Below are positions 47,551 to 64,000 of a stretch of DNA of 64,000 nt, piece by piece. Origin of the DNA: Termitidicoccus mucosus (GTDB lineage Bacteria > Verrucomicrobiota > Verrucomicrobiia > Opitutales > Opitutaceae); assembly GCF_038725785.1 (NCBI RefSeq), contig NZ_CP109796.1, positions 7,564,501-7,628,500 on the forward strand. The letters are read 5' to 3'. The notes under the pieces are model-generated. The model was not told where the DNA came from. It was given only the letters and a program-made list of their open reading frames with translations, and did no database searches. Numbering within the stretch: the first letter of the stretch is position 1; each line of letters starts with the position of its first letter. Made by a program: the position numbers and the translations under genes.

Positions 47551-47615
47551 TTAACCCATAAACCCATAAAATAAGCGTTGACAAGCGGCAATTTTCTTAT
47601 GGGTTTATGGGTTAA
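47551..47615. promoter_or_regulatory. Divergent operator: 19-bp inverted repeat
   Basis: TTAACCCATAAACCCATAA at 47551-47569 and its exact complement at 47597-47615 flank 27 bases. Each arm itself contains ACCCATA twice. The plus-strand pilin ATG starts within the right arm's end (47615) and the minus-strand ATG lies three bases beyond the left arm. A TTGACA sits between the arms at 47578-47583. Confidence 0.7.
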
Positions 47616-47914
47616 TGATACTGTTTCCCTCATCTTCTGCCACGGTCTCGGCGCTTGTGCTTCCTTCGCCGCTTTTCGTGCAGATCCAGCAGCTCAAAGA
47701 CGGCTTCGGCCTGGCCCTCGCCGTTCTCTTCATGTTCGGTTTTTTCTGGGGAGTGATTAAAATCTGGTCGGGGGCCAACGCCATCAGCAAAGGCGACCCC
47801 GACGGCAAAGCCGGCATCGTGGCCGGCATCATCATCGCGGCGGCAGCCACGATTATGGCCGCCCTATTCAGCATATTCGGTCTCCAAGATGCCGTGATTA
47901 CACCCCGCTTCTGA
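47615..47914 (+). CDS. VirB2/TrbC-like pilin
   Basis: 99 residues. The leader is followed by two membrane helices, FGLALAVLFMFGFFWGVIKIW and AGIVAGIIIAAAATIMAALF, joined by a short polar loop, as in VirB2/TrbC conjugative pilins. It is the first gene of the T4SS operon. There is no Shine-Dalgarno sequence: the ATG directly follows the operator arm, so a leaderless transcript is possible. Confidence 0.7.
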   Translation: MILFPSSSATVSALVLPSPLFVQIQQLKDGFGLALAVLFMFGFFWGVIKIWSGANAISKGDPDGKAGIVAGIIIAAAATIMAALFSIFGLQDAVITPRF

Positions 47915-47916
47915 CC

Positions 47917-48240
47917 ATGGCCGATCTACGCTATACCGAGACAAATGCAGCCGATGACTCGGCAGGACGCGTCTTTGGACTGGATGGCAATCTGTATCTG
48001 CCGGTTCTGCTCGCCATGCTCGGCGCGCTGGCGTTGTTCGCGATTCTCACCTTGGTGTTCAAGGTAGGTTTTATCCTGGCCGGCTTCATCGTCGCCGTGC
48101 CGTTGGTCGGTGTCCTGGGCTGGATCCTGTTGCTGAAACAAGGCAAGCCGGCCGGCTATGATCGAGACCTGCTGGAGCAGCTTTTGAGCAACGGTAATTT
48201 CACGCGGATTGCTGCCGAACAGGGGAGGGTAGTGGAATGA
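47917..48240 (+). CDS. VirB3-like inner-membrane protein
   Basis: 107 residues with a polar N-terminus (RYTETNAADDSAGRVFGLDG) and two close membrane helices between about 28 and 75. Small size, position right after the pilin and right before VirB4, and four-base overlap with VirB4 (ATGA) are typical of VirB3, the VirB4 partner. Confidence 0.65.
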   Translation: MADLRYTETNAADDSAGRVFGLDGNLYLPVLLAMLGALALFAILTLVFKVGFILAGFIVAVPLVGVLGWILLLKQGKPAGYDRDLLEQLLSNGNFTRIAAEQGRVVE

Positions 48241-50873
48241 AACCACATGACAAAGCTCCCAATGGAGTCTTTTGTGATGGGCTGATTCTTTATGGGTTTC
48301 CTGAGCGTGGCGCGATTGCCGCGAAGGGTTTTTGGATCGAACCGCCCGACCAAAGGGGAGCCAGCGTGGCTCGCCTCAATGCCTTTCAGGACCAAGTGCG
48401 TGCCGTCCTGGCGTTGGCCACACCCGGTCGCCGACTGCAACTGCAATGGTCCTGTGACGCCGACTACCGGTGCGAACTGCTGGCCTATCACGGTGCCACC
48501 CAGAAGGTGACTCACCCCGGTGTCCGCCGAGTGCGCAATGAACGTTTTATCCGCTATTGGGAGCGCATGCAGGCCCGGACATTGCGACGGGAGCGCCTAG
48601 CACTCTTCCTTTCCATCGAGATTTCCCGGTATGCCGGCAACGCGCAAACCCCCGGCGGACTCCGGGCACATTATGCGGCCGTGATCGGTGAATTACAGGC
48701 GCAGTTCGAGGATTTTGCCCACACCCTGTGCACCCTCTTTCAGGGGGAAACTCCGGTGACGGCAATGGGAGACGAGGAACACTGCCGCTACCTGCGTGAC
48801 TTTCTCAATCCTTCCGCAACTGAGCACAACGAGCAGTTTGTCCGATTCGATCCCGGGCTCACGATCCAGGAACAATGCTGGTTCAGCGAGGGTGTCGGCC
48901 AGCCCGAAGGCGGCTTCGTCCTCGACGGTCAGTATCATGCCATCCTCACCCTCGACCGCTGGCCCCAGCGGACGCGGTCGGGCATCATCACCCATCTGAC
49001 CGGCCTGCCGTTCCTCGATTATCGTATTACAGTCAATATCACTCCAGAGATCGCGCGCGGGGAAATCCGACGGGAGGAAAAGGCCATCGAACGGCTGGCT
49101 GGCGAGTACGCCGACCAAAAACGGCATTCGCTCGCCGTGGCGCTGCGCAAGAAGGAGCGGAAAGTCGAAAACCTCGCCAGCGGTTTCGTCCGCCCATTCG
49201 AGGTGGGTTATATCATCCGGCTGTGGGCGCCGACCCGCGAGGCTCTGCGCGAGAAAATCACGGCCATGCAGGCGGCGATTCATGCGATGGATGGCGCGCA
49301 ATATTTCGAGTGCGCCATTCCGACGACGGCCAAAAAGCTCTTTTTCGCCTCCTGGCCGGGCTGGACTCATTCCTCCTATCGCCATCGCAACCACTACGCC
49401 GAGGACAACTATCTCGCCGATTTGCTGCCCTTTTCCGCCACTTTCACCGGCGCGCTCGCCATTGCGGAGGCGATTTACGACGGCAGCCATCAAAACCTCG
49501 TGGGCCTCGCCACTGCCGTGGGCGGTTCGCCGCAACATGCCGTGCTTCTCGGCATGACCGGCGCCGGCAAGTCGGCGGTCATGCACGACCTGCTCATGCA
49601 GACGGCGGCATTGTTTGCCTATACCGTGATCATCGAGGAAGGGCTCTCCTATCGTCCCTTTACCGAAACGCTCGGGGAAACCCCGATCATCGTCCATCCC
49701 GACGCTGCATTGACGATCAACTACCTCGACACGCAGGGACTTCCCTTGACGCAGCTTCACCTCGCGAGCGCCGTGGCCCTGCTGTCACGGATGATCGGAG
49801 TTCCGGGAAGCGATGAGCGTCTCGCCTTGCGATCAGCCCAGCTCACCCAATACCTGCACCAGCTCTACCGCGATGCCTTCACCGAATGGGCGCGACGCCA
49901 TCCGGAGCGGGCGATGGAGGCCAGCCGACTGGCCTGCGCGGCGCATCGCTGGCGTCTGCGCCTGCCCGCCGGCACGACTCCGCTGGATGCGTTTGTCGAA
50001 CTGCGGGATCGACGGGCCGCCGGTGATGAGGAGGCGCAGCAATTCGTCGCCGACTTGAGCGAGGCGGACCTCACGCAGTTCGCCCAAGATCCGACGACGG
50101 AACGGCTGGTCGGACAGACCGCTTGCGCACTTTTCGCGCCCGAGGATCATCCCACCCACGGTGCGTTGGTGGATCTGCTCGCCTTTGCTCGTTTCCCCGA
50201 GCACCCCAAGGAGGAAATCGACCGGCTGGCAACATTGCTTCGCGCCTGGAGCGCCGATGGCGCCTACGGCCAGCTCTTCGATGGCGTGACCACTGTTTCC
50301 TTGCGCCGTCCGGTCGCGCATTTCGAGCTTGGCTACGTGCCCGAGCAGGCCGTGGAACTCAAGGCCGCCACGGGACTCCTCATTTCCGGTTTTGCACGGC
50401 AACACATCCTGGCGCTGCCGCGTGTCCAAAGGAAACGGATCATCTTCGAGGAAGTGGCCCGTTTTCTCGACGTTCCAGGCGGAGAAACGATCGTCGCGGA
50501 AAGTTACGCCCAGCTCCGCAAGTTCAATTGTTGGGCCGTGAGCATCGTGCAGCAATACGCGCGCTTCAAAACCTCGCGCATACGACCGGCGGTGATCGGC
50601 AACGCCAAGCAATTTTTTCTCATGCGCCAATCCGACCGGGGGGACCTGTCGGACCTGGCCGCAGATCTCGCGCTGCCGGAAAGCGCCATCGACGTCATCC
50701 AACATTACCCGCTGCCCGAGCAGCTTCCCGCCGCGCAGCGCCATTCCGCGTTGTGCTATTTCGCCCCCACCTCGCAGCCGCCGCAATGCGGCACGCTGCG
50801 CCACATTGAACCTCCCGCCCAAAACACGGAGCCCGCCCATGCCATCACCTCGACTGCTGCTCTCGTTGCTTAG
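48237..50873 (+). CDS. virB4: VirB4/TraC-family conjugation ATPase
   Basis: 878 residues. Walker A GMTGAGKS at about 439-446 and Walker B RKRIIFEEVARF near 733, followed by SIVQQYARF, are the VirB4 marks. The N-terminal 400 residues form the VirB4 N-domain that binds the membrane complex. It powers substrate transfer and pilus assembly. Length fits the family. The end overlaps the next lipoprotein gene. Confidence 0.9.
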   Translation: MKPHDKAPNGVFCDGLILYGFPERGAIAAKGFWIEPPDQRGASVARLNAFQDQVRAVLALATPGRRLQLQWSCDADYRCELLAYHGATQKVTHPGVRRVRNERFIRYWERMQARTLRRERLALFLSIEISRYAGNAQTPGGLRAHYAAVIGELQAQFEDFAHTLCTLFQGETPVTAMGDEEHCRYLRDFLNPSATEHNEQFVRFDPGLTIQEQCWFSEGVGQPEGGFVLDGQYHAILTLDRWPQRTRSGIITHLTGLPFLDYRITVNITPEIARGEIRREEKAIERLAGEYADQKRHSLAVALRKKERKVENLASGFVRPFEVGYIIRLWAPTREALREKITAMQAAIHAMDGAQYFECAIPTTAKKLFFASWPGWTHSSYRHRNHYAEDNYLADLLPFSATFTGALAIAEAIYDGSHQNLVGLATAVGGSPQHAVLLGMTGAGKSAVMHDLLMQTAALFAYTVIIEEGLSYRPFTETLGETPIIVHPDAALTINYLDTQGLPLTQLHLASAVALLSRMIGVPGSDERLALRSAQLTQYLHQLYRDAFTEWARRHPERAMEASRLACAAHRWRLRLPAGTTPLDAFVELRDRRAAGDEEAQQFVADLSEADLTQFAQDPTTERLVGQTACALFAPEDHPTHGALVDLLAFARFPEHPKEEIDRLATLLRAWSADGAYGQLFDGVTTVSLRRPVAHFELGYVPEQAVELKAATGLLISGFARQHILALPRVQRKRIIFEEVARFLDVPGGETIVAESYAQLRKFNCWAVSIVQQYARFKTSRIRPAVIGNAKQFFLMRQSDRGDLSDLAADLALPESAIDVIQHYPLPEQLPAAQRHSALCYFAPTSQPPQCGTLRHIEPPAQNTEPAHAITSTAALVA

Positions 50874-51102
50874 TGTAATCCTCCTTCTCGTCGGGTGCGC
50901 TTCCGCGCCGAAGCCCTCTGCCCCCGAGAGCCCGACAGCGCAAGCCGCCAAGGCTCGTTACTGGGCGATCCAGGCCGCGCAGAAGCCCGCTCCGGTTTCT
51001 TCGGAATTCGAACTTCTGCCCATCGTTCGTCCAGAACGAACCGTGGACGGCGTTATCGTCAACCCCTCCACGGACTATCTCCCCATTCGTCGCATCCCAT
51101 GA
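50839..51102 (+). CDS. Small lipoprotein (VirB7-like)
   Basis: 87 residues from the inner ATG at 50839. LLLSLLSVILLLVGCASAPK is a signal peptide with lipobox (LVGC). The mature part is short, Pro-rich and ends PSTDYLPIRRIP. VirB7-like lipoproteins stabilise VirB9 in the outer-membrane core. Lies within the VirB4 3' end and overlaps the next gene. Confidence 0.6.
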   Translation: MPSPRLLLSLLSVILLLVGCASAPKPSAPESPTAQAAKARYWAIQAAQKPAPVSSEFELLPIVRPERTVDGVIVNPSTDYLPIRRIP

Positions 51103-51917
51103 CTCCATATCGATTTTTAATCCTTCTTTTTATCGGCGCGCCGGCGGCGTTTGCCCAATGGATCGTCAATGATCCGATCAATACCGTCATCAACACGGCG
51201 ATTCAATCGGCCCAGGCCGCCAATCATGTCGAAACGCTCCGGCAGTGGGCGAGCCAGCTGGAAAAACTCAATCGGCAAATCCGCCAGTTGGAAGATCAAC
51301 TCGCCGAGCAGCGGCGGATTCGCGAGGTGCTGGGCGATCCCACGCTGGCCGGTTCGCAAATGGTCATGGACAAACTCGCTCCCGAAGAACTCGCCCGCAC
51401 CTATGGAGAGACGTTGCGAGCCGTCCGCCGCTTGGCGGATGCGACCGCCTCTTTGCGTCGCACCGCTGAGGGCATTTACGGTGAACTCGACGATCTCACG
51501 ACGCTGAATCAGCGTTTCACGCGCCAGACGGGGACCTACCGGCGCTACGCGGCCGTCGATCAGCAGGCGGAGAACCTGAGCCGGGTGCACGACGAAACAG
51601 AATCGCGCCGTCTCGTCCTGCAAGCCGATCTGGCGCAGTCGCTGGCCGCCTTGCAACAGGCTCCGACCCAAGCGGAGGTTGACAAGCTGAACGTCAAGGT
51701 TGCCGCGCTCAACGGTCAACTCGCCGTGATCGCCGCGCGGCGTCGGGACGAGAGCGAAAAACTACAGGCCCAACAGATCGAGAACGAAAATCAGGCCGCC
51801 AAAGAGCGACAGGATATGATCGAGAAGCAAATCGCGGAGGAGCGGCAGACGCTCAGCGCGGTGAATGCGTGGCAGCGCTCCGTGCGCCTCACGCCGGACA
51901 GCTATACGCGCCCATGA
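51099..51917 (+). CDS. VirB5/TrbJ-like protein
   Basis: 272 residues from the ATGA at 51099. Signal peptide FLILLFIGAPAAFAQW, then INTVINTAIQSAQAANHVET and long helices rich in Glu/Gln/Arg, including ASQLEKLNRQIRQLEDQLAE. This mix of a short exported start and a long helical, coiled-coil body is typical of VirB5/TrbJ, a minor pilus component and adhesin. Last 60 residues are strongly helical. Confidence 0.7.
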   Translation: MTPYRFLILLFIGAPAAFAQWIVNDPINTVINTAIQSAQAANHVETLRQWASQLEKLNRQIRQLEDQLAEQRRIREVLGDPTLAGSQMVMDKLAPEELARTYGETLRAVRRLADATASLRRTAEGIYGELDDLTTLNQRFTRQTGTYRRYAAVDQQAENLSRVHDETESRRLVLQADLAQSLAALQQAPTQAEVDKLNVKVAALNGQLAVIAARRRDESEKLQAQQIENENQAAKERQDMIEKQIAEERQTLSAVNAWQRSVRLTPDSYTRP

Positions 51918-52171
51918 AGAAAATGTTTTTCGGTCTCCTCTTCCTTGCGGCCGGCCTCGGCCTTTGTGGCTACCTCGTGCACCGGAACAACCAGCGCGCA
52001 CGCACGACGGTCCCGGCCTCAGACAGCGGCGGACATCGCCCAATGAACGAGTGGCAGAAAAGCATCTCGCTCGATACGCGCACCGATTACACGCGCCAAG
52101 AGATTGAACAAGCCATGGAGAAACTCCGGCAGGAAGAACGGCGCCAAAAGCCGGAGGAGGGTCGCAACTGA
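51914..52171 (+). CDS. Small single-helix membrane protein
   Basis: 85 residues, start overlapping by four bases. KMFFGLLFLAAGLGLCGYLV is a membrane helix or signal, then a charged tail (DYTRQEIEQAMEKLRQEERR) likely helical. Probably an accessory subunit of the channel; no family known to me. Confidence 0.5.
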   Translation: MKKMFFGLLFLAAGLGLCGYLVHRNNQRARTTVPASDSGGHRPMNEWQKSISLDTRTDYTRQEIEQAMEKLRQEERRQKPEEGRN

Positions 52172-53205
52172 TGGAGCACTTTGTTCCAGGCGTGCGCGGC
52201 GCCATTCTTGGCCTCACCGACACCTTGAGGTTCGTGGTGTTCTTCGTCGCGGTCATCGGTCTCGTGATGCAGGTGCACCGGGCGCGGGCCGACATGGAAA
52301 GTCTGGTGCGTCCACTGGTGCGGGCCGTGCTCGTGGTCGGCATCATCGCGACCCTGCCGCACTGGTTCGGGTTCACGGAACGCATTTTTCTGAACCTCGC
52401 GGATGTGGTGAACGAACGCTACACCGAGCATCCCATGCAAACGGCCACACTGTTGCGGGACAGCGTGGCGGAAAACCCCGATGAGTTCAGCCTGCGCCGC
52501 ATCGGTGAATCGCTCTACCGCGCGAGCCTCTGGGCCGCCGCCAAGCTCATCGTGCTGATCGCGAGCCTTCTGCAACTCCCCTTTCTTCTGCTGCAATACC
52601 TGCTCAAACTCCTGTGCTATTTGTTCCTGCCGATTGCGCTCGGGCTCATGCTGGTGCCCTCGCTCACGTCGCTCGCGGTTCGATATGTGCAGCAGACCAT
52701 CGCCGTGCTGGCATGGCCGGTGGGTTTCGCAGTCACCGAACTGGTCGCCTACCATCTGCTCACGGCTTATCAGCAAAATCTGGCGGCCGCTCACGGCATC
52801 GGTCCGGGCGAAATTCATGCGGCATCGTTTGCCAGTTTTCTGGGCGCGCTGCTCGCCGCCTTGTGGCTGATTCTCGGCACGCTTGGCACACCTTTTCTGA
52901 TGCAGGCATTGATCTGTTCGGGTTCGCCGCTTTCTACGGGCGGAACTTCCAGTCTCCAGCAGCTCTATGCCATCCAGCAAATCGCGTGGATGATCAAATC
53001 GGTGAAGACTGGCGGCGCGGCGTTGCCTGCGATCGTTGCCAAAGCCGGCTCCGATTCCGGACCGAGAGGCGGCCCGACGATGCCGCCGCCTCCGCCACCC
53101 GCGCCGGTAACGCCCCCACCGCCGCCAGCGAACTCCACAGGTGATGCTCGCGCCCAAGCCGTCTTGGTCGCCGCCCAACTGCCCGTCCCCCACACCACGA
53201 TCTGA
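52171..53205 (+). CDS. VirB6/TrbL-like polytopic membrane protein
   Basis: 344 residues with at least five helices: FVVFFVAVIGLVMQV near 25, VRAVLVVGIIATLPHW near 50, LIVLIASLLQLPFLLLQYLL near 130, then FLPIALGLMLVPSLTSLAV and LGALLAALWLILGTLGTPF. A Pro/Gly-rich cytoplasmic or periplasmic tail (PPPPPPAPVTPPPPPAN) follows. Matches VirB6/TrbL, the inner-membrane channel part of T4SS. Confidence 0.75.
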   Translation: MEHFVPGVRGAILGLTDTLRFVVFFVAVIGLVMQVHRARADMESLVRPLVRAVLVVGIIATLPHWFGFTERIFLNLADVVNERYTEHPMQTATLLRDSVAENPDEFSLRRIGESLYRASLWAAAKLIVLIASLLQLPFLLLQYLLKLLCYLFLPIALGLMLVPSLTSLAVRYVQQTIAVLAWPVGFAVTELVAYHLLTAYQQNLAAAHGIGPGEIHAASFASFLGALLAALWLILGTLGTPFLMQALICSGSPLSTGGTSSLQQLYAIQQIAWMIKSVKTGGAALPAIVAKAGSDSGPRGGPTMPPPPPPAPVTPPPPPANSTGDARAQAVLVAAQLPVPHTTI

Positions 53206-53210
53206 CACGT

Positions 53211-53870
53211 ATGAGCACAATCCTTCGTGAAACCTCGACCCCTCCTGGAAGACTCAACCCCAAAAAGGCTGTCCCCCGAGCTTGGCATCCGCTGGATATG
53301 TTCGTCAATCCCGCGGTGGCCGCTCGGCTTTGGTTCTTGGTTGCGGCGGCTGCGGTGGTGTTGAGCATCGTGCAACCGTATCTGCTCGTGCGGGCCTACC
53401 GCACCCGGGAACGTGTCGTCGTGCTCGATGGCAGCGGCACGTTCCATATCAGCCCGTTGCTGGCATTCGAGGAATCGGCCAAGCTGCATGAGCAGCACGC
53501 GCTGCTGGCTTGCCTCGCCTTGCTGCAACGCAACCCCGCTGGATTTGATCAACCGGAATTGCTCGAAAAGCTCTTCCTGCCGGAGGCCTTGCAACAGGCA
53601 CAAAGCGACTGGACCGGGAGCGCGGAGGAGTTTTCCCGCAAAAAACTGCACCAAAAGGTCGAGGTACTGAAACTCACCGTGCTGGAAACACGCGAGCAGG
53701 TCGTGCTCGTCCAAGCGGAAGGGCAACTGCTCCGCACCGGCAGCGTCGGACAACAGATTTTCACCGAAGCGCCTGCCTTCACTGCGCGATTCACTTTCGC
53801 GCGCAACCCCAACCTTGCGGCCAATGGCCGCTTCCCTCTCGCCGTATGGTATTACGAGCTTTCCTCCTGA
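53211..53870 (+). CDS. VirB8/TrbF-like protein
   Basis: 219 residues. One membrane helix near 37-60 (ARLWFLVAAAAVVLSIVQPY) with a periplasmic domain of about 150 residues (VVVLDGSGTFHISPLL, then helices and the terminal beta sheet ending FPLAVWYYELSS). This is the VirB8 arrangement, the assembly nucleus. It overlaps the next gene by 25 bases. Confidence 0.7.
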   Translation: MSTILRETSTPPGRLNPKKAVPRAWHPLDMFVNPAVAARLWFLVAAAAVVLSIVQPYLLVRAYRTRERVVVLDGSGTFHISPLLAFEESAKLHEQHALLACLALLQRNPAGFDQPELLEKLFLPEALQQAQSDWTGSAEEFSRKKLHQKVEVLKLTVLETREQVVLVQAEGQLLRTGSVGQQIFTEAPAFTARFTFARNPNLAANGRFPLAVWYYELSS

Positions 53871-54664
53871 CGCTTTTCTCCGGCGTGATGGCGTCCGGCA
53901 TCGCGGCTGGACCGGTCAAACGGTATCCGCTCGACGACCGGAGCGTGTATGCCGTTCGGGTTGGCACCGAAGCGCCCACGACCGTGATTTTTCCCGGTCC
54001 GGTCACGGCACTCGATGGCGCTGGCGTGTCACAACGGGCGGAAGAGGCGCCGCCTATTCTTATTTCGCACCAACCGGGGACACGCTTCTTCTCCGTGCGG
54101 GCGGTGCAGGCGGACGCCGTTGGCGCGGCCAACGTCATCTTCCGGGACCGCGTTTTTGCCTTCTCGTTTACCACTGAAGCAGAACCGGACCGCACCGTCA
54201 CGTTTTACGAACATCCGGCGAAAACCGCGCGCCGGGATGCCGCGCGCCCCATGCCGCACCAATTGCTCGCTCTGATCGATCAGGCGAAAGAATTCGTCGC
54301 CCTCTCCGAACAATACCCGGCTCTGGTACAACGGATCGAACGCACGACTCCACAAACAACAACGCTGGCGGGCGACATCACAACGACTGTCGAAGAAGTG
54401 CTTCGATTCGATGACGAGGACGCGCTGGTGTTGCGCGTTCGGTTCGAAAATCGAGGGAAGCAGGTGTTCCGCTACGCTCCCGCACACCTCGCGGTGTGGA
54501 TTGGCCAGGCCTGCTATCCCGTGGCACTGACCGATGCCCACGGAGAAGTGCCCGCCAAACACGCCGAAATCGTGACGGTTGTCATCCTCGGCAATCCCGA
54601 TGGGTCGCGGGGAGACATCTCCATAAAAAACACTTTCTCAATCGTCGCGCCGCCCTTGCCATGA
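53846..54664 (+). CDS. VirB9/TrbG-like protein
   Basis: 272 residues. Signal peptide AFLLTLFSGVMASGIAAG, an N-terminal beta domain (VYAVRVGTEAPTTVIFPGPV and FFSVRAVQADAVGAANVIF) and a C-terminal beta domain (ALVLRVRFENRGKQVFRY). The order of domains, size and position between VirB8 and VirB10 identify it as VirB9-like outer-core protein. ATGA overlap with the next gene. Confidence 0.75.
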   Translation: MVLRAFLLTLFSGVMASGIAAGPVKRYPLDDRSVYAVRVGTEAPTTVIFPGPVTALDGAGVSQRAEEAPPILISHQPGTRFFSVRAVQADAVGAANVIFRDRVFAFSFTTEAEPDRTVTFYEHPAKTARRDAARPMPHQLLALIDQAKEFVALSEQYPALVQRIERTTPQTTTLAGDITTTVEEVLRFDDEDALVLRVRFENRGKQVFRYAPAHLAVWIGQACYPVALTDAHGEVPAKHAEIVTVVILGNPDGSRGDISIKNTFSIVAPPLP

Positions 54665-55644
54665 AACTCGACGCCCAGTTTTTTAGCAGTCCAACCGGAC
54701 AACTCGTCGCCGTCGGGGTGCTGGCTGCGATCACCATGGGAATCGTCGCTTGGCAGCGTGCTCATCGTGACGTTCCCATGTCTCCGGCAAAGGCAGTCGC
54801 GCCTGCGTCATTGCCCAGGGTATTTGAGCGGACTGGTGCCCGCTTCGAACCACCGCCGGTTCCGCCTGCGCCAATTCCGGTAGCGGCGACAACACCCCCC
54901 GTATCCGCTTCGATCCCGCCGGTATTGCCACTTTCACTTTTTAGCATGCCCCCGACTTTTTCGGAAGAAGCGCCGTTCGTAGATGCACCCTTCGGCCGTC
55001 TGATCCCGTGCGAAACGGTGGTCACGCTCGAGTCGAATCGCCTGGAAACTCCGGTCATCGGTCTGGTTACCGAGGATGTCTGGCATAATGGCCGTCTCAT
55101 TATCCCGGCCGGCGCCGAGGTGCATGGGCGTGCCTCGCTCGACCGCGCTCGCGAGCGGCTGGCTGTGCAAGGGCGATGGATGATTGTCTGGCGCTCATCT
55201 GGCCGCGAGAACGGACGCGAACTTCGCGTCGATGGCATGGCGCTTGATCGTGAAATCGCGGCGGATGGCCAGTGGGGATCGCACGATGGTTCCGCCGGAT
55301 TGCGGGGCGAAATCCTGCGCACTGACGACTGGCGGGAAATCAAACTTTTCGCGGCAACCTTTCTCTCCGTTGCCACTTCAGCACTTCAGGACACGCGCAG
55401 TACGGCGGGCCTGCTCGGCGAAACTGCAGTGCCGGCGGCGACCGCCCGCAATGCTACTCTCGCGGGTACGAGCGCGATTCTCCGCGAATACGCGCAGCAG
55501 CTTCGCGATGTCGTGGCCCACGATGGTTTCTATGTCCGGGTCCCGGCAGGCAAGCCGTTTTATCTCTATGTCACCCAAACCCTCGACGCGCTCGACCGCC
55601 CGGCGACCGCGCCTGCAACCGGCTCCATGCCGTCACAACCATGA
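54661..55644 (+). CDS. VirB10/TrbI-like protein
   Basis: 327 residues from the ATGA at 54661. One N-terminal helix (LVAVGVLAAITMGIVAWQ), a Pro-rich periplasmic spacer (about 45-95), then the conserved LIPCETVVTLESNRLETPVIG, IIPAGAEVHGRASLDRARER and VRVPAGKPFYLYVTQTLDA blocks of the VirB10 beta-barrel domain. Spans both membranes and gates the channel. Confidence 0.8.
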   Translation: MKLDAQFFSSPTGQLVAVGVLAAITMGIVAWQRAHRDVPMSPAKAVAPASLPRVFERTGARFEPPPVPPAPIPVAATTPPVSASIPPVLPLSLFSMPPTFSEEAPFVDAPFGRLIPCETVVTLESNRLETPVIGLVTEDVWHNGRLIIPAGAEVHGRASLDRARERLAVQGRWMIVWRSSGRENGRELRVDGMALDREIAADGQWGSHDGSAGLRGEILRTDDWREIKLFAATFLSVATSALQDTRSTAGLLGETAVPAATARNATLAGTSAILREYAQQLRDVVAHDGFYVRVPAGKPFYLYVTQTLDALDRPATAPATGSMPSQP

Positions 55645-56387: not shown

Positions 56388-56388
56388 C

Positions 56389-57591
56389 ATGCCTACCTAC
56401 GCCGCCATTTTTATCGATTCGCAGGGATGCCGCCGTTCCGAGCATTTCGAGGCACGGGATCGACATCAGCTCAAACAAGCCTTGCGAGCGAAATCACTTT
56501 GGCTGGTTTCCGCGCAGGAGATGAAAGCCAGTCGAAAACTCACGCGACTGACGATCCCCGTGCGTGACTTCGTGCCATTGCTGCACCAACTCGAATTGCA
56601 GTTGCGGGCCGGTGTTACCGCCGATCTCGCCCTTGCCCAATTGGCTGGAGATGCTCCTCCGGGAGCGATCCACACCGTATTGAGCCACCTCTGTCGGGAG
56701 GTATCTCAAGGTCAGTCGATCCACCAGGCTTGTCGGACTTTTCCAAGGTTGTTTCCGTTGCACTTGCGGGCGGTCATCGCGGCGGGCGAGGTTTCCGCGC
56801 AACTGCCAGAATCTTTGCGCGCGCTCGCCGCGCATCTGACCAGCATTGACAGCCTCCGTCGTACCGCGCGGCGCGCACTCATCTACCCCGCGATTGTTCT
56901 GACCGCGACGGCGGGGCTTGTCATCTTCCTCTTGGGCAGCGTGGTGCCTCGGTTTGCGGAAATCTTCACATCACTCCATCTGGCGCTTCCTCTGATCACC
57001 GTCGTGCTCATCCGCACCAGTGAGCTGATGCACGTGCACACGCTGGCCTTGCTGACAATCACCATTGCATTGGGCTTTGCGTTTGCGGTGGCGGCGCACT
57101 CTCCTGCGCTGCGCCGGCGACGGGATGCGTTGTTGTTGAAAATCCCCTTATGGGGCGATGTCATTCGTCATCTGGCGACAGCACGGTTTGCCGCGCATGG
57201 CCGACTGCTGCATGAAGCTGGCGTCCCTCTTCTGGATGCCCTCACTTCTGGCGCGGAGCTGACCGGCCACGCCGTGCTCGCAAACCAACTGCTGGCGGCG
57301 CGCGACGCCGTTGCGGCAGGACGACCTCTCTATGCCGCCTTGCCCAAGGGGCATGCGTTCCCGCCTTTCATGATCCCGGCGCTGAAAGCCGGAGAAACCA
57401 CCGGCCAACTTGGGGCGGCGCTTCGGCACATCGAAGATTACGCGAGCACTCGCGCGCGTGAACGGCTGACGACCGCACTCGCGCTGCTCGAACCGGTTGT
57501 GATGGCCCTGTTGGCGGCAGTGGTCGGCGCCATCGCTTTATCGTTTTTCCTGCCCCTCGTTTCGCTCCTCGGGAGTGTCAACCCCCATTGA
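56389..57591 (+). CDS. GspF/PilC-like platform protein
   Basis: 400 residues. Two similar GspF domains, each starting with a helix bundle (LLHQLELQLRAGVTADLALA near 60 and FAAHGRLLHEAGVPLLDALT near 265), each followed by membrane helices (ALIYPAIVLTATAGLVIFLL, LLEPVVMALLAAVVGAIALS). Start follows the lipoprotein stop by one base. It is the inner-membrane rotor/platform of type IV pilus or T2SS machines. Confidence 0.85.
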   Translation: MPTYAAIFIDSQGCRRSEHFEARDRHQLKQALRAKSLWLVSAQEMKASRKLTRLTIPVRDFVPLLHQLELQLRAGVTADLALAQLAGDAPPGAIHTVLSHLCREVSQGQSIHQACRTFPRLFPLHLRAVIAAGEVSAQLPESLRALAAHLTSIDSLRRTARRALIYPAIVLTATAGLVIFLLGSVVPRFAEIFTSLHLALPLITVVLIRTSELMHVHTLALLTITIALGFAFAVAAHSPALRRRRDALLLKIPLWGDVIRHLATARFAAHGRLLHEAGVPLLDALTSGAELTGHAVLANQLLAARDAVAAGRPLYAALPKGHAFPPFMIPALKAGETTGQLGAALRHIEDYASTRARERLTTALALLEPVVMALLAAVVGAIALSFFLPLVSLLGSVNPH

Positions 57592-57594
57592 CCG

Positions 57595-58530
57595 ATGACG
57601 TGTAATTCCCATCTGCATCGGTGTGCCTGTTTGGCGAAGCGCGGTTTTTCGCTCCTCGAAATCGTACTCGTCCTGTTTGTGATCGGCGTGCTGGCGTCCG
57701 TGTTGCTGCCTTCGACCCGGGACATGGTGGAACGCAGCCAGCGGGAGGCGGAGGCGCGTTCCTTGGCGGAACTGGCCGCCACGATTACGCAGTCCTTCGA
57801 TGCGACCGATCTGTCTCTGCTGAACATCGCCGCCCTTCCTGGCACAATCGGAGAGAGCGACACCGCTACGGCCTTTTCCACTTCGACCACTGCTCCCTAT
57901 ACCATGACGGCTTCGAACTCATGGTTCGCCAAGGCAGGCCGATTGCGTGGACTTGTTCCGGTAATCGGCGCCGCTCCGATTCCCTCCGTCCAGCCCGAAC
58001 TGGCCCGCCTTGCCTTTAATCGAAACGGGAATCCGCGTCTGCTGTTTGCCGGACCGGATGAACCAGATCGCCAGCGCTTCCTGCTCCTGAGTCTAGCCGG
58101 GCGGAGCGAACAACTGGCGCTGCCGACCTATGAAGCTGGCGGCGCTTGGTTCGATGCCATTTGGAACCATGACTGGGAAAATCGCTCCGCCGGTCTTCCC
58201 GGTTATTGGGTCAGCCGACTCACGGGTGCTCAGGTCTCGGCCTGGATTCAAGGCAGCGGCGGTTTGACCCAAGTCAGCAAACTCTGCGTTCGCCGGATTG
58301 TTCTGCCCAAGTTCCGGCTGACGGTGAACAATAACCATCCGACCGAACAGGTGTTTGTGTCCTTCAATAATACGCCCGCTGCCTTTACGGCGGCGGCCAG
58401 CAGCGGGGCGAGCGTAACGCCGGAAATCCTCGGCGGCCGGCTCGTCATTATCCATCGCGGCTCCGCCTGGCCCGGCGTTGAGGCGCTGCGCTTCCATCTC
58501 CGCGAAAACGCCACTGTAACCGTCCAATAG
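57595..58530 (+). CDS. Prepilin-like protein with type III-type N-methylation motif
   Basis: 311 residues. After a short basic leader the text KRGFSLLEIVLVLFVIGVLA is the prepilin peptidase site (cleavage G/F, Glu at +5) and helix. The C-terminal part is a large beta-rich domain. Size exceeds the usual major pilin (about 150), so it may be a tip or minor pilin. Confidence 0.8.
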   Translation: MTCNSHLHRCACLAKRGFSLLEIVLVLFVIGVLASVLLPSTRDMVERSQREAEARSLAELAATITQSFDATDLSLLNIAALPGTIGESDTATAFSTSTTAPYTMTASNSWFAKAGRLRGLVPVIGAAPIPSVQPELARLAFNRNGNPRLLFAGPDEPDRQRFLLLSLAGRSEQLALPTYEAGGAWFDAIWNHDWENRSAGLPGYWVSRLTGAQVSAWIQGSGGLTQVSKLCVRRIVLPKFRLTVNNNHPTEQVFVSFNNTPAAFTAAASSGASVTPEILGGRLVIIHRGSAWPGVEALRFHLRENATVTVQ

Positions 58531-58531
58531 T

Positions 58532-60289
58532 ATGCATTCCTTCTTTTCCCTGCGGCGTATGGCCGCGCTCATTCTCAGTTTGATGGGGTTTGCCGCCCAT
58601 GTTTGTGCCGACGAAATCGTTTCATTTCTCGAATCGCGAAACGGCCAACTGAATATCGGAACCTACCAATACTGGTTCAACGTCAGCAGCCCACAAATCC
58701 TTCGCTTCCGGCTCGAAGCCCTCAGCGGCACGTCGAATATCACCATTTCTCGCCGTCGCCCTGATACCGGGGTGGATGAACTGATCTTCTTCGCCCGATA
58801 TGGCGGCTCCTACGGATCGCTTGGAGACAAAGGCTATCGTGAATTTAATCTCCAGGCTGGCGACCACACGATCCGGCTCAACAGCTCAATCACGAGCGGC
58901 TGGATAAGGATGACGGAAATCACCCTCGAAAATCCCCCTCCAGCCAACCAAGCCCCGAGCATCGAATGGCAGGAAGCTCCAAGTTCTGCCACGGTGGGGC
59001 AAACTTACCGCATTTCTGCATGCGCGCACGATCCGGATGGCAACTTGACGCAAGTCAACGTGTGGAAAAATGGACAGCCTTTCGCATTTGCCGGGGGAGG
59101 CAATGGCACGGACGGCGATTCCGGTAATTCCACTTCCGACAATACTCCAAGCACGGTTACATTTACCGCCCAGGCTGTGGATAGTGCCGGGCTCTCCTCT
59201 GCGGTCATTTCCCACGCCATCACCATTGATACGCCACCGAATGCCGCCCCGACGATCGCCTGGGGGGCTGTGCCTGCGGTGGTGGATAGCGGTCAGCGCT
59301 ATACCATCAGCGCACGTGCGACCGACCCGGATGGCAATTTGCGTACGATCCACATCTGGAAGGACGGCGGTGCCTTTGCCTCAACTGAAGGTGGAAACGG
59401 CTCCACGAGTGAAGCGAGTAATCAGAGTGCTGATACCGGACCACGCACCGTGACCTATATCGCCCGCGCAACGGATGCGTCCGGAGCAACCTCTCCGACC
59501 CTTACTCACACCGTTACAGTCGAAGCTCCCGTTCCGGTGCAGTTCTCACTCGTCACCTCCGCGGGCACAGGTGGCACCGTTTCGCCTGGCGGCCTTTTTA
59601 TGGAAGGGAGCTCCATATCGGTCACGGCCACTCCGGATGCCCTGCATGATTTCGTCGGATGGAGTGGCGACGCGTCTGGAACGAATAATCCCATCGCGAT
59701 TCTGATGAATCGCAACCGCGCCGTGCATGCGCTGTTTGCACTCAAGTCCTATTCCTTGGTGACCAGTGCCATTGGGAGCGGAATCGTTACCATGGGTGGC
59801 ACTTATCCGCACGGTTCCATCGTCACGATTTCGGCCACCCCTGCGCCCAATGCGCGATTCGCCGGCTGGGCGGGCGATGCCACCGGGATGGTCCCGACCG
59901 TGGTCATTGTGATGGATGCCCCCAAGTTGGTTCAGGCTGTGTTTGCGGACAAACAGGCGCAGACCATTTCATTTTCCGCCTTGGCCGACGTCAGCGTCGG
60001 CGCGGCCCCGTTTAGCCTAAACGCCGTCGCCTCTTCCGGTCTGCCCGTGTATTATGGGGTGAGCGGACCGGCCATGATTATGGGCAACCAACTCCAAGTC
60101 ATCGCTCCGGGCGTCGTTTCAGTCGAAGCGAGGCAGGATGGAAACGATTTCTACCTCCCGGCCCTGCCCGTGGTGCGGACGTTCAATGTTGTCGCGCCTG
60201 CGGTCCTCAAATACCGCGCGCCGAATCGCACGCTGCTGCAAAGCGAAACCAACCGTGGATTGGTGCCCTTCGTCATCGAGCAACCCTAA
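58532..60289 (+). CDS. Exported Ig/InlB-repeat adhesin candidate
   Basis: 585 residues with signal peptide (ILSLMGFAAHVCA). Two Ig-like repeats (about 145-235 and 238-330), each with P-x-I-x-W-x-x-x-P, ISACAHDPDGNL or ISARATDPDGNL, and VDSAGLSS/TDASGATS blocks. Then come two divergent InlB-B-like repeats (GTVSPGGLFMEGSSISVTAT..FVGWSGD and GIVTMGGTYPHGSIVTISAT..FAGWAGD) and a further beta domain. It lies between a prepilin and the secretin, as pilus adhesins do; the name is inference. Confidence 0.6.
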   Translation: MHSFFSLRRMAALILSLMGFAAHVCADEIVSFLESRNGQLNIGTYQYWFNVSSPQILRFRLEALSGTSNITISRRRPDTGVDELIFFARYGGSYGSLGDKGYREFNLQAGDHTIRLNSSITSGWIRMTEITLENPPPANQAPSIEWQEAPSSATVGQTYRISACAHDPDGNLTQVNVWKNGQPFAFAGGGNGTDGDSGNSTSDNTPSTVTFTAQAVDSAGLSSAVISHAITIDTPPNAAPTIAWGAVPAVVDSGQRYTISARATDPDGNLRTIHIWKDGGAFASTEGGNGSTSEASNQSADTGPRTVTYIARATDASGATSPTLTHTVTVEAPVPVQFSLVTSAGTGGTVSPGGLFMEGSSISVTATPDALHDFVGWSGDASGTNNPIAILMNRNRAVHALFALKSYSLVTSAIGSGIVTMGGTYPHGSIVTISATPAPNARFAGWAGDATGMVPTVVIVMDAPKLVQAVFADKQAQTISFSALADVSVGAAPFSLNAVASSGLPVYYGVSGPAMIMGNQLQVIAPGVVSVEARQDGNDFYLPALPVVRTFNVVAPAVLKYRAPNRTLLQSETNRGLVPFVIEQP

Positions 60290-60301
60290 ACTGTATTTAT
60301 A

Positions 60302-61693
60302 ATGAAAATACTTCTTTGCATCCTCTTTGTCGTGCCCGTGAGCGCCGCCATGCTTGATCAACCGGTCGAACGCTTGCGTTTCGAGTCCGCTGCTTTGCCT
60401 GATGCCTTGCGTTCTCTCGGCCGCGCCACGCACACGACGATTCTCGTCGATTCCGACATTATCGGAAAAGTCACTGTGGAGGTTGGCGGAGGCACCCTGC
60501 GCGATGCCTTGGCTGCCCTGACCGTCCCATACGATTATTTTTTCGAGGAACAAGGCACCGCCATTGCGGTGCGGCAACGCAAGACCGTCCTTTATGCCAT
60601 CGATTATCCGCAACTCACCCGGTCCGGTTTTGGGAGCGCGTCGATCACGTTGGGAGGAATGAATGGCGGCTATGATACAAGCCAGAATCTGCATGCGCAG
60701 AGCACCTACCCGAATCGATCAAACCAATCAATGGATGCCGCCTCGGATGCCACACAAGTTTCCATTTCGCAGGAAAATCCCAATACATTCTGGACCGGAC
60801 TGGAGACGGAGCTACGAACCATGCTTGGCGAGAAAGACAGCTTGGTGCTCAACCGCTTCAGTGGGATCGCGCAGGTCACAGCTCCGCTTTCGCGGCACGA
60901 CGTGATCCGCGCGTTCATCGAACTCGTGAACCACCGCATCTCGCGCCAAGTGGAAATTGAGGCGCGCTTGGTGGAAGTCACTTTGCGCGATGAACAGAAG
61001 CTCGGCGTCGATTGGGAACTGGCCACCAGCGCGCTCGGCGACTTGCGTCTCGCTGCCAGTGCGCCTCTCGCGGTTACCGGTGTCGGAGGCACTGTGTTTG
61101 GAAACAGTTCATTTGTGGCGAATCTCGGCCTCGGTAAAGCCACCGCGATTATTCAGGCCCTCAAACAACAGGGCGATGTCACTACCGTCGCGCAACCGCG
61201 ACTGCGAGCGCTCAACAACCAGACCGCCTTTATCAAGGTGGGCGAAGACCGGCCGTTTTTTCGTCTCCAACAATCCACTACTTACCAGCAGGCAGGCACG
61301 ACGGTGCCGTATAATCAGACCCAGGAGACGTTTTCCATCTCCACAATCACGATCGGCACCATCCTCGCGGTCACACCCCAAGTGGATAACGACGGCGTCA
61401 TCACACTGGACGTGCTGCCGGCCATCACGCGGCTGCAATCCATCGTGACCAGTCCGGACGGTAAGCAGACCGCCCCGGTCACCGAGGTCAAACAAGCCTC
61501 AACCATTGTGCGGCTCCGCAATGGCGAAACCGCCGTCATCGGCGGACTCATCTCCGAGGAAAGCGGCTCCAGCACACGCGCGGTGCCGGTACTGAGCCGC
61601 GTACCGCTCCTTGGCCTCGCCTTCCGCAGCCAAGCTACCCTGCGCAACCGCACCGAACTCGTGATCTTTCTCACCCCGCACTTGATCCCGTGA
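60302..61693 (+). CDS. Secretin (GspD/PilQ/PilN family)
   Basis: 463 residues. Signal MKILLCILFVVPVSAA, N0/STN-like domain near 25-100 (RFESAALPDALRSLGRATHT, IIGKVTVEVGGGTLRDALAA), then the secretin core: GDVTTVAQPRLRALNNQTAF, IGTILAVTPQVDNDGVITLD, AVIGGLISEES and the end RNRTELVIFLTPHLIP. It forms the outer-membrane gate for the pilus. Lacks the extra N1-N3 repeats of large GspD, more like the small pilus secretins. Confidence 0.85.
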   Translation: MKILLCILFVVPVSAAMLDQPVERLRFESAALPDALRSLGRATHTTILVDSDIIGKVTVEVGGGTLRDALAALTVPYDYFFEEQGTAIAVRQRKTVLYAIDYPQLTRSGFGSASITLGGMNGGYDTSQNLHAQSTYPNRSNQSMDAASDATQVSISQENPNTFWTGLETELRTMLGEKDSLVLNRFSGIAQVTAPLSRHDVIRAFIELVNHRISRQVEIEARLVEVTLRDEQKLGVDWELATSALGDLRLAASAPLAVTGVGGTVFGNSSFVANLGLGKATAIIQALKQQGDVTTVAQPRLRALNNQTAFIKVGEDRPFFRLQQSTTYQQAGTTVPYNQTQETFSISTITIGTILAVTPQVDNDGVITLDVLPAITRLQSIVTSPDGKQTAPVTEVKQASTIVRLRNGETAVIGGLISEESGSSTRAVPVLSRVPLLGLAFRSQATLRNRTELVIFLTPHLIP

Positions 61694-62892
61694 TACGTGA
61701 ATTGCTCCAGACGTTCCGGTCGCGCCCAACCGCACCGCCCACCGTGGTCGATCCGACCGTCGATGCCACGCGGATGCTCGATACGATTCTGCGCACCGCC
61801 GCCAGAGACGGTGCGAGCGACGTTCACTTCGAACCGAAGGAAACCGCACTGTTGGTTCGTTTTCGTCTCGATGGCGAAATGCACGATCATATCACCGTGC
61901 CGCTCGCGCAACGCGATGCCTTGCTCGCGCGTGGAAAAATTTTCGGAGGCATGGACATCACCGAGCGCCGGCTCCCGCAAGATGGACGAGCCGTGCTCAA
62001 GGAGGGCGGTCGGCGCTATCATCTGCGATTGAGCACACTTCCCACCGTGCACGGCGAAAATCTGGTCATCCGGCTTCTCGACCAGACCATGCCGGTCCAA
62101 TCCTTTACCGAACTGGGGCTGACGGAGCCTCAAGCGAACGCGCTTGAAAACGCACTCAACGGACCCGCCGGCCTGATCCTGCTCACAGGTCCGACCGGTT
62201 CGGGCAAGACGACGACACTGCACGCCGCGCTGCATGCCTTGGACTACCGTGGCCGGGTGATTCACACCCTGGAAGATCCAGTCGAATATGAATTCACGGC
62301 TATTCGCCAAACTGAGATTCGAGAAAAGATCGGGCTTACCTTCGCCTCTGCCCTGCGGGCGCTCCTGCGCCAAAATCCCGACGTGATGCTCGTCGGAGAA
62401 ATGCGCGATGCCGAGACCGCGCAACTGGCGATTCGTGGCGCGCTCACCGGGCACCTCGTGCTTTCAACCTTGCATACGAACGACGCACTTTCCGCAATCC
62501 CGCGTTTACGCGACCTCGGGGTCGAAAGTTTTCTCATTGCCGCATGCCTTCGGCTGGTTGCGGCTCAGCGGCTGGTGCGTCGTCTTTGTCCCGCTTGTCG
62601 GACACCGCATCCACAACTCGAACAATTGCGGCAACGTTACCGTTTGCCCGAAGGGCAATTTTATCAGTCGAGAGGTTGTCCGAAATGCCATGGGCGCGGT
62701 TTTTATGGGCGACTGGCGATCCATGAAGTCATCCCGGCGAAACCGTTTCTGGCTCCCATCGCCGCCGACGCCCCATTGGCCGACCTTGTTTCGCTCCGCG
62801 AATCCGAGGGATACCGTACGCTCTGGGATAGCGGGCTCCATGCGGCCGCGACCGGACTCACCACCGTGGAGGAGGTCGCACGCGTTCTCTGA
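61690..62892 (+). CDS. GspE/PilB-like pilus ATPase, short form
   Basis: 400 residues, ATGA-coupled to the secretin. N2E-like domain SDVHFEPKETALLVRFRLDG, Walker A TGPTGSGKTTT at 167-174, the acidic box and LVGEMRDAETAQLAIRGALT, the His box LVLSTLHTNDALSAI, and a four-Cys zinc site (CPACRTPH, GCPKCHGRGF). The N1E domain of PilB/GspE is absent, so the protein is about 150 residues shorter than usual. Confidence 0.85.
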   Translation: MIRELLQTFRSRPTAPPTVVDPTVDATRMLDTILRTAARDGASDVHFEPKETALLVRFRLDGEMHDHITVPLAQRDALLARGKIFGGMDITERRLPQDGRAVLKEGGRRYHLRLSTLPTVHGENLVIRLLDQTMPVQSFTELGLTEPQANALENALNGPAGLILLTGPTGSGKTTTLHAALHALDYRGRVIHTLEDPVEYEFTAIRQTEIREKIGLTFASALRALLRQNPDVMLVGEMRDAETAQLAIRGALTGHLVLSTLHTNDALSAIPRLRDLGVESFLIAACLRLVAAQRLVRRLCPACRTPHPQLEQLRQRYRLPEGQFYQSRGCPKCHGRGFYGRLAIHEVIPAKPFLAPIAADAPLADLVSLRESEGYRTLWDSGLHAAATGLTTVEEVARVL

Positions 62893-62940
62893 TTTTCCCG
62901 GGCTATGCGGCCGCGGCCCTTAACCTAAACCGTCCACCCT

Positions 62941-63696
62941 ATGAAAAAACATCTACCAAAATATCATCATTCCCAAGGCTATTCTCTGCTCGAACTCGTG
63001 CTCGTCCTCGCGATCGTCGCTGTATTGGTCGGGCTGCTGCTGCCGAAGGGTTTCGATGCCCTGCGCAACGCCCGCGTGCAACAGGTTGTGCGAACCGTCG
63101 ATACGCTCAAGACCGCCCTCGTGGATTACCTCGCGCTGGCCGGCGGCAACGGCAGCCTGCCTCGCACCGAGGGCATGGGCATACCTACCTCTGGAGCCGC
63201 CCTTACCGGCGCAACTGACATAGCCAAAAGCAACGCCGCCAGGCTTGATACCGTGTTGCTGGCCACGGGACGTTTGGAACGTCCGCTCTCGTTGCGTATG
63301 GGAACACAGACGTACATGTCCACAGGAACAGGCAACGAGCTCACTTGGAATCAGGCGGTGCTCGCGTTCGTCATGACGCCCGACGCTGCTCCCCAGCGGG
63401 ACTGGTCTGCCGTCACTCGGGCCGAGGCGCGCATGGCCAATCCCAGTCTGGTACCGTCCGCCGCACTGGGCGCCAACTTTTTGCTGGACGGTTTTACCAA
63501 TCTGAACGCGAACAGCATCGTCGCGTATCTCGTGATCCCTTCGTGCCCGGCACGCGACGCCTACGAACTCGCCATGGCGATGAACGGCGCGCAACTCGCA
63601 CCTTTGGAAGGCACGGCCAGCGATACCGGCCTTGTCGCCTATGCAGCCCCCACCAACGGAGTCACCGATGTATATGTTTACCTCACGTCCATCTGA
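62941..63696 (+). CDS. Second prepilin-like protein
   Basis: 251 residues. QGYSLLELVLVLAIVAVLVG is the peptidase site (G/Y, Glu at +5) and helix; a helical stretch then a beta-rich pilin head follow. It is smaller than the first prepilin and could be the major or a second pilin, as thin pili of IncI plasmids have. Confidence 0.8.
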   Translation: MKKHLPKYHHSQGYSLLELVLVLAIVAVLVGLLLPKGFDALRNARVQQVVRTVDTLKTALVDYLALAGGNGSLPRTEGMGIPTSGAALTGATDIAKSNAARLDTVLLATGRLERPLSLRMGTQTYMSTGTGNELTWNQAVLAFVMTPDAAPQRDWSAVTRAEARMANPSLVPSAALGANFLLDGFTNLNANSIVAYLVIPSCPARDAYELAMAMNGAQLAPLEGTASDTGLVAYAAPTNGVTDVYVYLTSI

Positions 63697-64000
63697 CCCG
63701 ACGGTCGCGTTGCTTTGGGGAGACCGCTGGTGGATTGACGGGCATCCCGAGCCAATCGTGTTTGGAGAAACCGGCCATGCATTCAAAGTGTTGCTGGCCC
63801 ATTTTGCCGAACACGGCAAACCGGCGAAACTCCGCCTCATCTATCAGCCGCCGTCGCTGGTGAGTGTGCCGGTGCAATGCCCGAACGGGAGCCGGGCCAC
63901 CTTGCAGGCGGCTTTGCAGGAGGAATACCCGTCTATCGCTCGAGCAGAGTGTGCCTGGAGCTACGAGCCGATCATTGGCCGACGCAACGAGACTTTGCTT
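63674..64000 (+). CDS. Start of a PilM/GspL-like gene (3' cut by window)
   Basis: 109 codons are visible, open to the right edge. The start at 63674 overlaps the prepilin end. The text ALLWGDRWWIDGHPEPIVFG and LPQPP-like LVSVPVQCPNGSRATLQAALQ suggests an actin-like PilM/GspL-type start, but no motif is decisive. Position in the pilus operon is the main support. Confidence 0.4.
   Translation, partial: MFTSRPSDPTVALLWGDRWWIDGHPEPIVFGETGHAFKVLLAHFAEHGKPAKLRLIYQPPSLVSVPVQCPNGSRATLQAALQEEYPSIARAECAWSYEPIIGRRNETLL

Follow-up and report, generated by a model that had tools for sequence, protein, structure and literature searches.

Gene organization of the operon

The 64,000-nucleotide stretch of the Termitidicoccus mucosus genome analysed here, hereafter the window (C1:7,564,501-7,628,500), lies on the 7.82-Mb contig C1; the other contig of the assembly, C2, is 102 kb long. 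Seventeen open reading frames (ORFs) on the same strand, and an eighteenth that runs past the window end, form one operon (47615..64912) in which a divergent VirB-type type IV secretion system (T4SS) runs straight into a machine resembling type IV pili (T4P) and type II secretion systems (T2SS) (Table 1). The gene order is VirB2-B3-B4-B7-B5-orf85-B6-B8-B9-B10 in the T4SS half and GspB-GspF-prepilin-adhesin-secretin-GspE-prepilin-PilM/GspL-like in the second half. All junctions between these genes are overlaps or gaps of no more than 48 nt. A consensus scan of the operon detects 2 promoter-like sites, against 5.0 +/- 2.4 in shuffles, and 24 terminator-like sites, against 17.8 +/- 4.6, both counts being at or close to the shuffled level, and no site of either kind lies in a gap where it could separate the T4SS and T4P halves. 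The two halves are presumably transcribed together.

The original prediction placed a VirB-type T4SS followed by a T4P/T2SS-like machine in one operon at 47615-64000. This arrangement is borne out as a single gapless unit, and the same order is found in 30 distinct loci of Opitutaceae; the true end, however, is at 64912, with the PilM/GspL-like gene extending beyond the window. All 17 genes of the predicted order are there, but the second prepilin gene comes after GspE and not before the secretin. Of the outcomes named in advance as refuting the prediction, none came about: profiles place the second half in T4P/T2SS families, the halves are not split by a promoter or terminator, and a relaxase gene is carried by the same element.

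The VirB4 scores for TIGR02746 and TIGR00929 are both under the curated cut-off. Profile searches find no PDB homologue of VirB4, VirB6, VirB8 or VirB9, and the last three have no Pfam match either. The small lipoprotein at the VirB7 position is assigned from position and conservation only. Neither VirB11 nor VirB1 is found in the operon. GspE is ruled out as a VirB11, because it scores 445 bits as GspE and 46 bits as VirB11; it is the sole PF00437 member of the operon.

Profile searches assign the second half to T4P/T2SS families (GspF, secretin, GspE and prepilins), and the PilM/GspL-like protein is assigned by structure: the model of its orthologue at locus L122 (pLDDT 85) matches PilM (5eou, 1.2e-8) and cyto-EpsL (2.3e-7) in Foldseek. 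An assembly ATPase, a GspF platform, a secretin and class III prepilins are all present. The N-terminal helix of prepilin 2 matches solved T4 pilins. The length of prepilin 1 is almost constant (305-310 aa in 32 loci); its structure model has a mean pLDDT of 61, and Foldseek returned nothing usable for it. The retraction ATPase PilT is absent from the loci in which both halves are fused (fused loci), which have a single GspE; a PilT-like gene is present only in the plasmid and standalone types described below.

Table 1 Genes of the operon and of its surroundings, with the basis of each assignment (window numbering unless stated otherwise)
Feature	Coordinates	Strand	Basis
ClpB-type single-AAA unfoldase-like	46186..47091	-	divergent from operon; Pfam AAA_2 1.4e-24, ClpB_D2-small 2.4e-15
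156-aa gene	47078..47548	-	ORF; co-oriented with AAA gene; kept in second copy; no Pfam match
VirB2-like pilin candidate	47615..47914	+	size, transmembrane (TM) pattern and position kept in fused and T4SS-only elements; no Pfam match
VirB3-like	47917..48240	+	weak DUF3487 0.019; position conserved
VirB4/TraC-like ATPase	48237..50873	+	TIGR02746 TraC-F 8.3e-21, TIGR00929 VirB4 3.2e-16, PF19044 1.1e-5
Small lipoprotein, VirB7 position	50839..51102	+	lipobox ...LLVGCAS; position conserved
VirB5-like	51099..51917	+	weak profile match to pKM101 TraC (VirB5 homologue, PDB 1r8i), E 0.0025, ~158 residues
orf85, small membrane protein	51914..52171	+	conserved among fused loci
VirB6-like polytopic membrane protein	52171..53205	+	position, hydrophobic stretches, T4SS-only homologues
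VirB8-like	53211..53870	+	position, N-terminal TM, 51-55% identity to T4SS-only elements
VirB9-like	53846..54664	+	position, signal peptide, T4SS-only homologues
VirB10 (TrbI family)	54661..55644	+	PF03743 6.9e-17, above cut-off
Chimeric lipoprotein (GspB-like)	55641..56387	+	T2SSB 2.3e-6, residues 198-236, just under cut-off
GspF/PilC inner-membrane platform protein	56377..57591	+	TTG start; PF00482 9.6e-42, TIGR02120 3.5e-74
Prepilin 1, 311 aa, probable minor pilin	57595..58530	+	N_methyl 5e-4
Sec-exported modular adhesin	58532..60289	+	variable head, Ig/InlB-repeat stalk, conserved C-terminus; PF18998 2.2e-22, Big_7 0.0077
Secretin, nearest MSHA-type MshL	60302..61693	+	PF00263 1.6e-41; TIGR02519 211 bits (cut-off 250)
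GspE/PilB assembly ATPase	61690..62892	+	PF00437 6.7e-116; GspE 445 bits
Prepilin 2, GspG-like N-terminus, probable major pilin	62941..63696	+	N_methyl 2e-5, GspG 5e-7
PilM/GspL-like, 414 aa	63668..64912 (window part ..64000)	+	structure of L122 orthologue
YadA-type adhesin gene (T4SS-only element)	L042 14595-17237 = C1:2,984,595-2,987,237		directly follows VirB10; homologue in 4.81-Mb element

Conservation of the fused operon

Within the sampled phylum and relatives, the prepilin-1 profile gives long, strong matches only in Opitutaceae. A named scan of 84,980 species yields 32 prepilin-1 loci, 29 of which are of the fused type. T4SS and T4P genes are found in the same order on the same strand in 25 of these 29 loci, and the other four contigs stop less than 0.9 kb upstream of prepilin 1, so that all 25 named fused contigs reaching beyond the junction show it. 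Together with the window, its sister copy in the same genome, two G170 loci and the chromosome of TAV5, these make up the 30 distinct loci. Most of the relatives are metagenome-assembled genomes. No relative of prepilin 1 is found in viral contigs, and the plasmid collection yields only the TAV5 plasmid and, in Deinococcus, a weakly matching piece of VirB4. A 4.5-kb contig with the operon (L133, PNKC01000108.1) is labelled Anaerolinea, probably owing to a binning error.

Across 20 complete loci, VirB4 distances are strongly correlated with those of GspE (Mantel rho 0.59, p 0.002) and GspF (rho 0.62, p 0.002) and more weakly with those of the secretin (rho 0.28, p 0.02) and prepilin 2 (rho 0.24, p 0.06). 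The two halves have thus for the most part travelled together, with some reassortment.

The lipoprotein at the junction

The T4SS and T4P halves meet at the GspB-like lipoprotein. In elements of the same genome that carry the T4SS only (T4SS-only elements), VirB10, or a YadA-type adhesin plus a small gene, is followed by a lipoprotein without a GspB domain. Residues 8-90 of the window protein are 38% identical to such a lipoprotein over 92 aa (E 2e-11); overall, the identity to T4SS-only lipoproteins is 38-42% over 61-92 aa, with 41% over 61 aa for others. The same N-terminal match is seen in G170a (6e-11), L124 (8e-10), L126 (2e-13) and C2 (4e-7), and in the remaining fused loci it is weak and limited to a coiled stretch. 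Composition shuffles used as a control reach 0.005 at best in 260 trials. GspB of modules without a T4SS (T4SS-free modules) gives no match to the T4SS-only lipoprotein. The C-terminal T2SSB part is common to the T4SS-free modules (2e-10 to 9e-15) and absent from the T4SS-only lipoproteins. Because its N-terminus matches the T4SS-only lipoprotein and its C-terminus is T2SSB, the junction protein is, as judged from its sequence, a T4SS-element lipoprotein fused to a T4P GspB domain.

Domains of the GspB/GspC/PilP type bind secretin N-domains in known systems. It is therefore plausible, by analogy, that the lipoprotein tethers the secretin to the outer-membrane complex of the T4SS. A further step, that the T4SS and T4P are physically one machine in which the N-terminal part of the lipoprotein binds the T4SS outer-membrane complex and its GspB domain binds the secretin, seems rather unlikely to us. 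If it were true, attachment through the adhesin head would be mechanically coupled to the opening of the DNA channel, and the composite secretion machine would be new to description. The chimeric lipoprotein is a concrete candidate for a link between two machines regarded as separate.

The adhesin and its variable head

The adhesin gene sits between prepilin 1 and the secretin, and the aligned length of its product ranges from 388 to 1696 aa across loci. InlB-type repeats occur in every variant scanned, and the C-terminal 70 residues have a mean identity of 50%. The N-terminal heads from 31 loci form eight groups with no detectable mutual similarity, as computed from the N-terminal ~115 residues alone; linking the adhesins by residues 20-260 merges them into one cluster through their common stalk repeats. 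Distances between C-termini are correlated with those between VirB4 proteins (rho 0.42, p 0.002), whereas distances between heads are not (rho -0.05, p 0.69). Genomes with two operons can carry differing heads (G170a/b, G075a/b and L134/L139), with the exception of the recent duplicate formed by the window and its sister copy (W/A430), whose adhesins are 96% identical. These sequence comparisons show that the heads are swappable. The adhesin is likely to be exported via the secretin, and its variable head would bind recipients.

Two T4SS-only elements of the same genome have a gene for an 880-aa-class protein after VirB10; of these two proteins, the one that was scanned belongs to the YadA-type trimeric autotransporters (YadA_stalk 7e-32, anchor 6e-8). 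This suggests that the slot in the operon tends to hold genes for surface attachment.

The mobile element and its copies

The segment 46127-67892 (window numbering) has a 95.6% identical sister copy at C1:421,612-443,367. The match extends to the left, with 93-99% identity, as far as C1:7,539,807 in the window copy and 313,194 in the sister copy. The window element is about 93 kb long and carries the operon at its right end. A MobF relaxase gene (C1:7,545,150-7,547,747; TrwC 3.3e-74) lies about 67 kb upstream of VirB2 and a gene for a TrwB/TraD-like type IV coupling protein (T4CP; C1:7,549,735-7,551,177; TrwB_AAD_bind 4e-12, TraG-D_C 6e-6) about 62 kb upstream. In the relatives G170a, G075a and G393, the orthologous pair is located 1-7 kb from the AAA gene at the border of the operon. 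Compared with G170a, the window relaxase is 74% and the window T4CP 82% identical; compared with the T4SS-only elements, the two are just 32-39% identical. At the left end of the sister copy, a gene for a 697-aa serine recombinase lies beside an obgE-like gene, and genes 34-66% identical to it are found in four relatives. No convincing direct repeats are seen at the element ends. The best explanation of these sequences is that the window operon belongs to a family of integrative conjugative elements of Opitutaceae, in which it would serve as the transfer operon.

A divergent version is found on C2, whose 102,402 bp represent a plasmid of about 51.2 kb assembled twice in tandem with many indel frameshifts. 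Its order is relaxase, T4CP, VirB4 to VirB10, GspB, GspF, prepilin 1, PilT-like, secretin, GspE, prepilin 2.

The ClpB-like AAA gene adjoins VirB2 in every fused locus having enough flank. Nearly all elements, whether fused, T4SS-only, on plasmid C2 or in relatives, combine their T4SS, T4CP and relaxase genes with a ClpB-like single-AAA gene of about 300 aa. Its product might unfold the relaxase for transport.

Between the T4CP and the T4SS (window ~7600-45700), the element carries as cargo zinc-homeostasis-like genes (COG0523-type GTPases and TonB receptors), nrd-like and thioredoxin genes (41147-45674) and a VapBC-like pair (36741-37421). Part of this site is occupied in the sister copy by another stretch, of 56 kb. 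The 7.9-Mb genome contains at least 15 MobF (TrwC) relaxase genes, an unusually high load of conjugative elements.

Related types in the same genome and in relatives

The same genome has six T4SS-only loci and one fragment, without the GspF-to-PilM module. These elements resemble the window element in their VirB4, which is 58-59% identical where intact, in the same VirB order and in the presence of a ClpB-like AAA gene, a MobF relaxase and an o144-like gene. They differ from it by the absence of the GspF-to-PilM module and, in three loci, by a tyrosine integrase.

In a second divergent lineage (L147-L149), the VirB4 is more distant, and VirB3/B4/B5/B6-like genes are fused to the T4P genes known from the window. 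These loci were considered as a hybrid without a core complex, in which the secretin would replace VirB7/9/10; the presence of VirB9/B10-like genes on the L149 contig and, at a distance of about 25 kb, on the L148 element rules this out. Nor are they T4SS-free controls, as the divergent VirB4 and its neighbours are present. The true T4SS-free modules (X4858, G391b and G080) are chromosomal and have a PilT-like ATPase and proteins of about 4000 aa. At L103/L104 (C1:4.846-4.873 Mb), G391b and G080, a chromosomal T4P/T2SS-like module has two ATPases, a repeat protein of about 4000 aa and no linked T4SS.

TAV5 is a cultured isolate from termite gut. Its chromosome has a fused operon (G391a, about 5.19-5.21 Mb), which carries two tandem copies of prepilin 2. 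The TAV5 plasmid CP007054.1 has T4SS, T4P, T4CP and MobF genes, but its T4SS and T4P sets, although complete-looking, are scattered and non-contiguous. The stretch of this plasmid that was examined is annotated as hypothetical save for one SSB gene, and typing classes the plasmid as no more than mobilizable. Since a plasmid with a related T4SS is typed in this way, the extent of conjugation may be underestimated in Verrucomicrobiota.

In the T4P tree, the fused loci make up a single clade and C2 groups with L148/L149; in the T4SS tree, C2 is the most distant branch. The simpler, though not proven, reading is that the T4P genes were present in the ancestor and were lost in the T4SS-only elements.

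Possible mechanism and alternative explanations

Gene content, the gapless order, conservation across genera, the MobF relaxase and T4CP on the same elements, the chimeric lipoprotein and head-swapping make it likely, in our judgement, that the system is a conjugative element with a built-in recipient-attachment machine, whose adhesin would grip the recipient before DNA transfer by the T4SS. Support also comes from the duplication of the element in the genome, from the divergent T4SS and T4P set on the ~51-kb plasmid with relaxase and T4CP homologues, from the correlation of VirB4 with GspE, GspF and the adhesin C-terminus but not with the heads, and from the YadA-type adhesin after VirB10. 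Donor cells would co-express the divergent VirB/TraC-type T4SS and the T4P/T2SS-like machine from one transcription unit. The secretin would pass a pilus or pseudopilus together with the Sec-secreted adhesin, which would be displayed on the filament or at the cell surface, and the adhesin head would bind a surface structure of the recipient. After processing by the MobF relaxase and delivery by the T4CP, the DNA would then be transferred by the T4SS, probably via VirB2-B10 rather than via the secretin. This suggests that the transfer machine includes the means by which the element holds on to its next host. The predicted conjugation system with a built-in attachment pilus is thus judged to be the best reading, although the second half may simply export an adhesin instead of assembling a true, polymerised pilus.

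Several observations speak against a built-in attachment machine of this kind. Both prepilins are large for a major pilin, and no prepilin peptidase gene is found on the element, the single match in the genome being chromosomal and far off, at C1:3,989,892. VirB6, VirB8 and VirB9 are named from position, membrane pattern and conservation only. The window copy, on which no integrase is found, lacks the recombinase of the left end of the sister copy and may be immobile. The TAV5 fused operon has no profile-recognised adhesin between prepilin 1 and the secretin, and an adhesin may not be obligatory for the fused operon.

The strongest alternative is that two machines are merely co-regulated, a complete T4SS beside an independent T2SS-like exporter of the adhesin, with no polymerised pilus and no physical contact. 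In its favour, the fused type has just two prepilins and lacks a PilT-like retraction ATPase, and the giant proteins of about 4000 aa beside the related T4SS-free module suggest protein export. However, the chimeric lipoprotein joins the lipoprotein of a T4SS element to a secretin-binding type of domain, and the plasmid version has a second, PilT-like ATPase. We regard this alternative as possible, and lean against it. In another alternative, the DNA conduit would include the T4P machine, as has been proposed for PAPI-1, and the secretin would be the outer-membrane exit. PAPI-1 needs the T4P for its transfer and has only VirB4/VirD4 homologues (PMC12857230), and the divergent L147-149 type fuses VirB3/B4/B5/B6-like genes to T4P genes. 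In the window, however, VirB8, VirB9 and VirB10 are present, in L148/L149 they are encoded at another place on the contig, and the T4SS-only sister elements of the same genome are wholly without T4P, so that such a conduit is improbable here. It is still less probable that the T4SS serves protein effectors or killing instead of conjugation, with the T4P providing contact: common typing misses the divergent T4SS as conjugative, as in the TAV5 plasmid, but the MobF relaxase, T4CP and recombinase on the same elements, the duplication within the genome and the plasmid version argue for conjugation. A chance landing of a T4P operon behind a T4SS operon has practically no standing, being refuted by synteny, with a fixed order in 30 distinct loci of the family, and by the parallel T4SS-T4P associations on two plasmids and in the L147-149 type.

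The way in which conjugative elements choose and hold their recipients has been investigated for the most part in a small number of enterobacterial plasmids. In the system described here, a single operon conserved throughout a family holds the genes for both attachment and transfer, and the same genome offers natural controls in the form of T4SS-only sister elements, a version with a YadA adhesin and a T4SS-free pilus module. As the adhesin heads are swappable, recipient specificity can be tested directly.

Comparison with known systems

A literature search found no description of such an operon, which is not proof of absence, and a 2025 review of T4SSs leaves Verrucomicrobiota unmentioned. 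Among F-type (TraC) and VirB-type T4SSs, the VirB4 is nearest to F-type TraC, and the MobF relaxase and TrwB/TraD-like T4CP are further likenesses. However, the scores are far under curated cut-offs, VirB11 is missing, and VirB6, VirB8 and VirB9 are unrecognisable by sequence. The second half shares an MshL-like secretin, GspE, GspF, a GspB-like protein, a PilM/GspL-like protein and two prepilins with the MSHA pilus and T2SS. In contrast to these systems, it lies inside a conjugation operon, the fused type has no PilT, and GspB is part of a lipoprotein chimera.

IncI plasmids such as R64 and TP114 are likewise conjugative elements with their own T4SS and a T2SS-related pilus, and their adhesin also has constant and variable parts. 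Their Dot/Icm-like T4SS and their thin type IVb pilus are encoded by two clusters, and recipients are selected by variants of the adhesin PilV (PMC12857230; PMC9045228). The T4SS described here, however, is VirB/TraC-like with a TrbI-type VirB10, not Dot/Icm-like; its secretin is MshL-like (211 bits) and not of the PilN type IVB (96 bits); and one operon replaces the two clusters of IncI. What varies here is the N-terminal head of a separately secreted protein, whereas in IncI it is the C-terminus of the minor pilin PilV. No shufflon is seen in the gapless operon, which has no spare cassettes. PAPI-1 of Pseudomonas aeruginosa is also an integrated element with a pilus that mediates recipient recognition and is needed for transfer. 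This pilus recognises LPS (PMC5297154). A 10-gene type IVb pilus cluster is present in PAPI-1, the T4P being essential for transfer, and only VirB4/VirD4 homologues are clear (PMC12857230), whereas here a VirB2-B10 set (VirB10 plus VirB2-B9-like genes) shares an operon with the T4P. The system would work like IncI or PAPI-1 but is a member of neither, as the T4SS class, the pilus class, the gene order and the position of the variable region differ.

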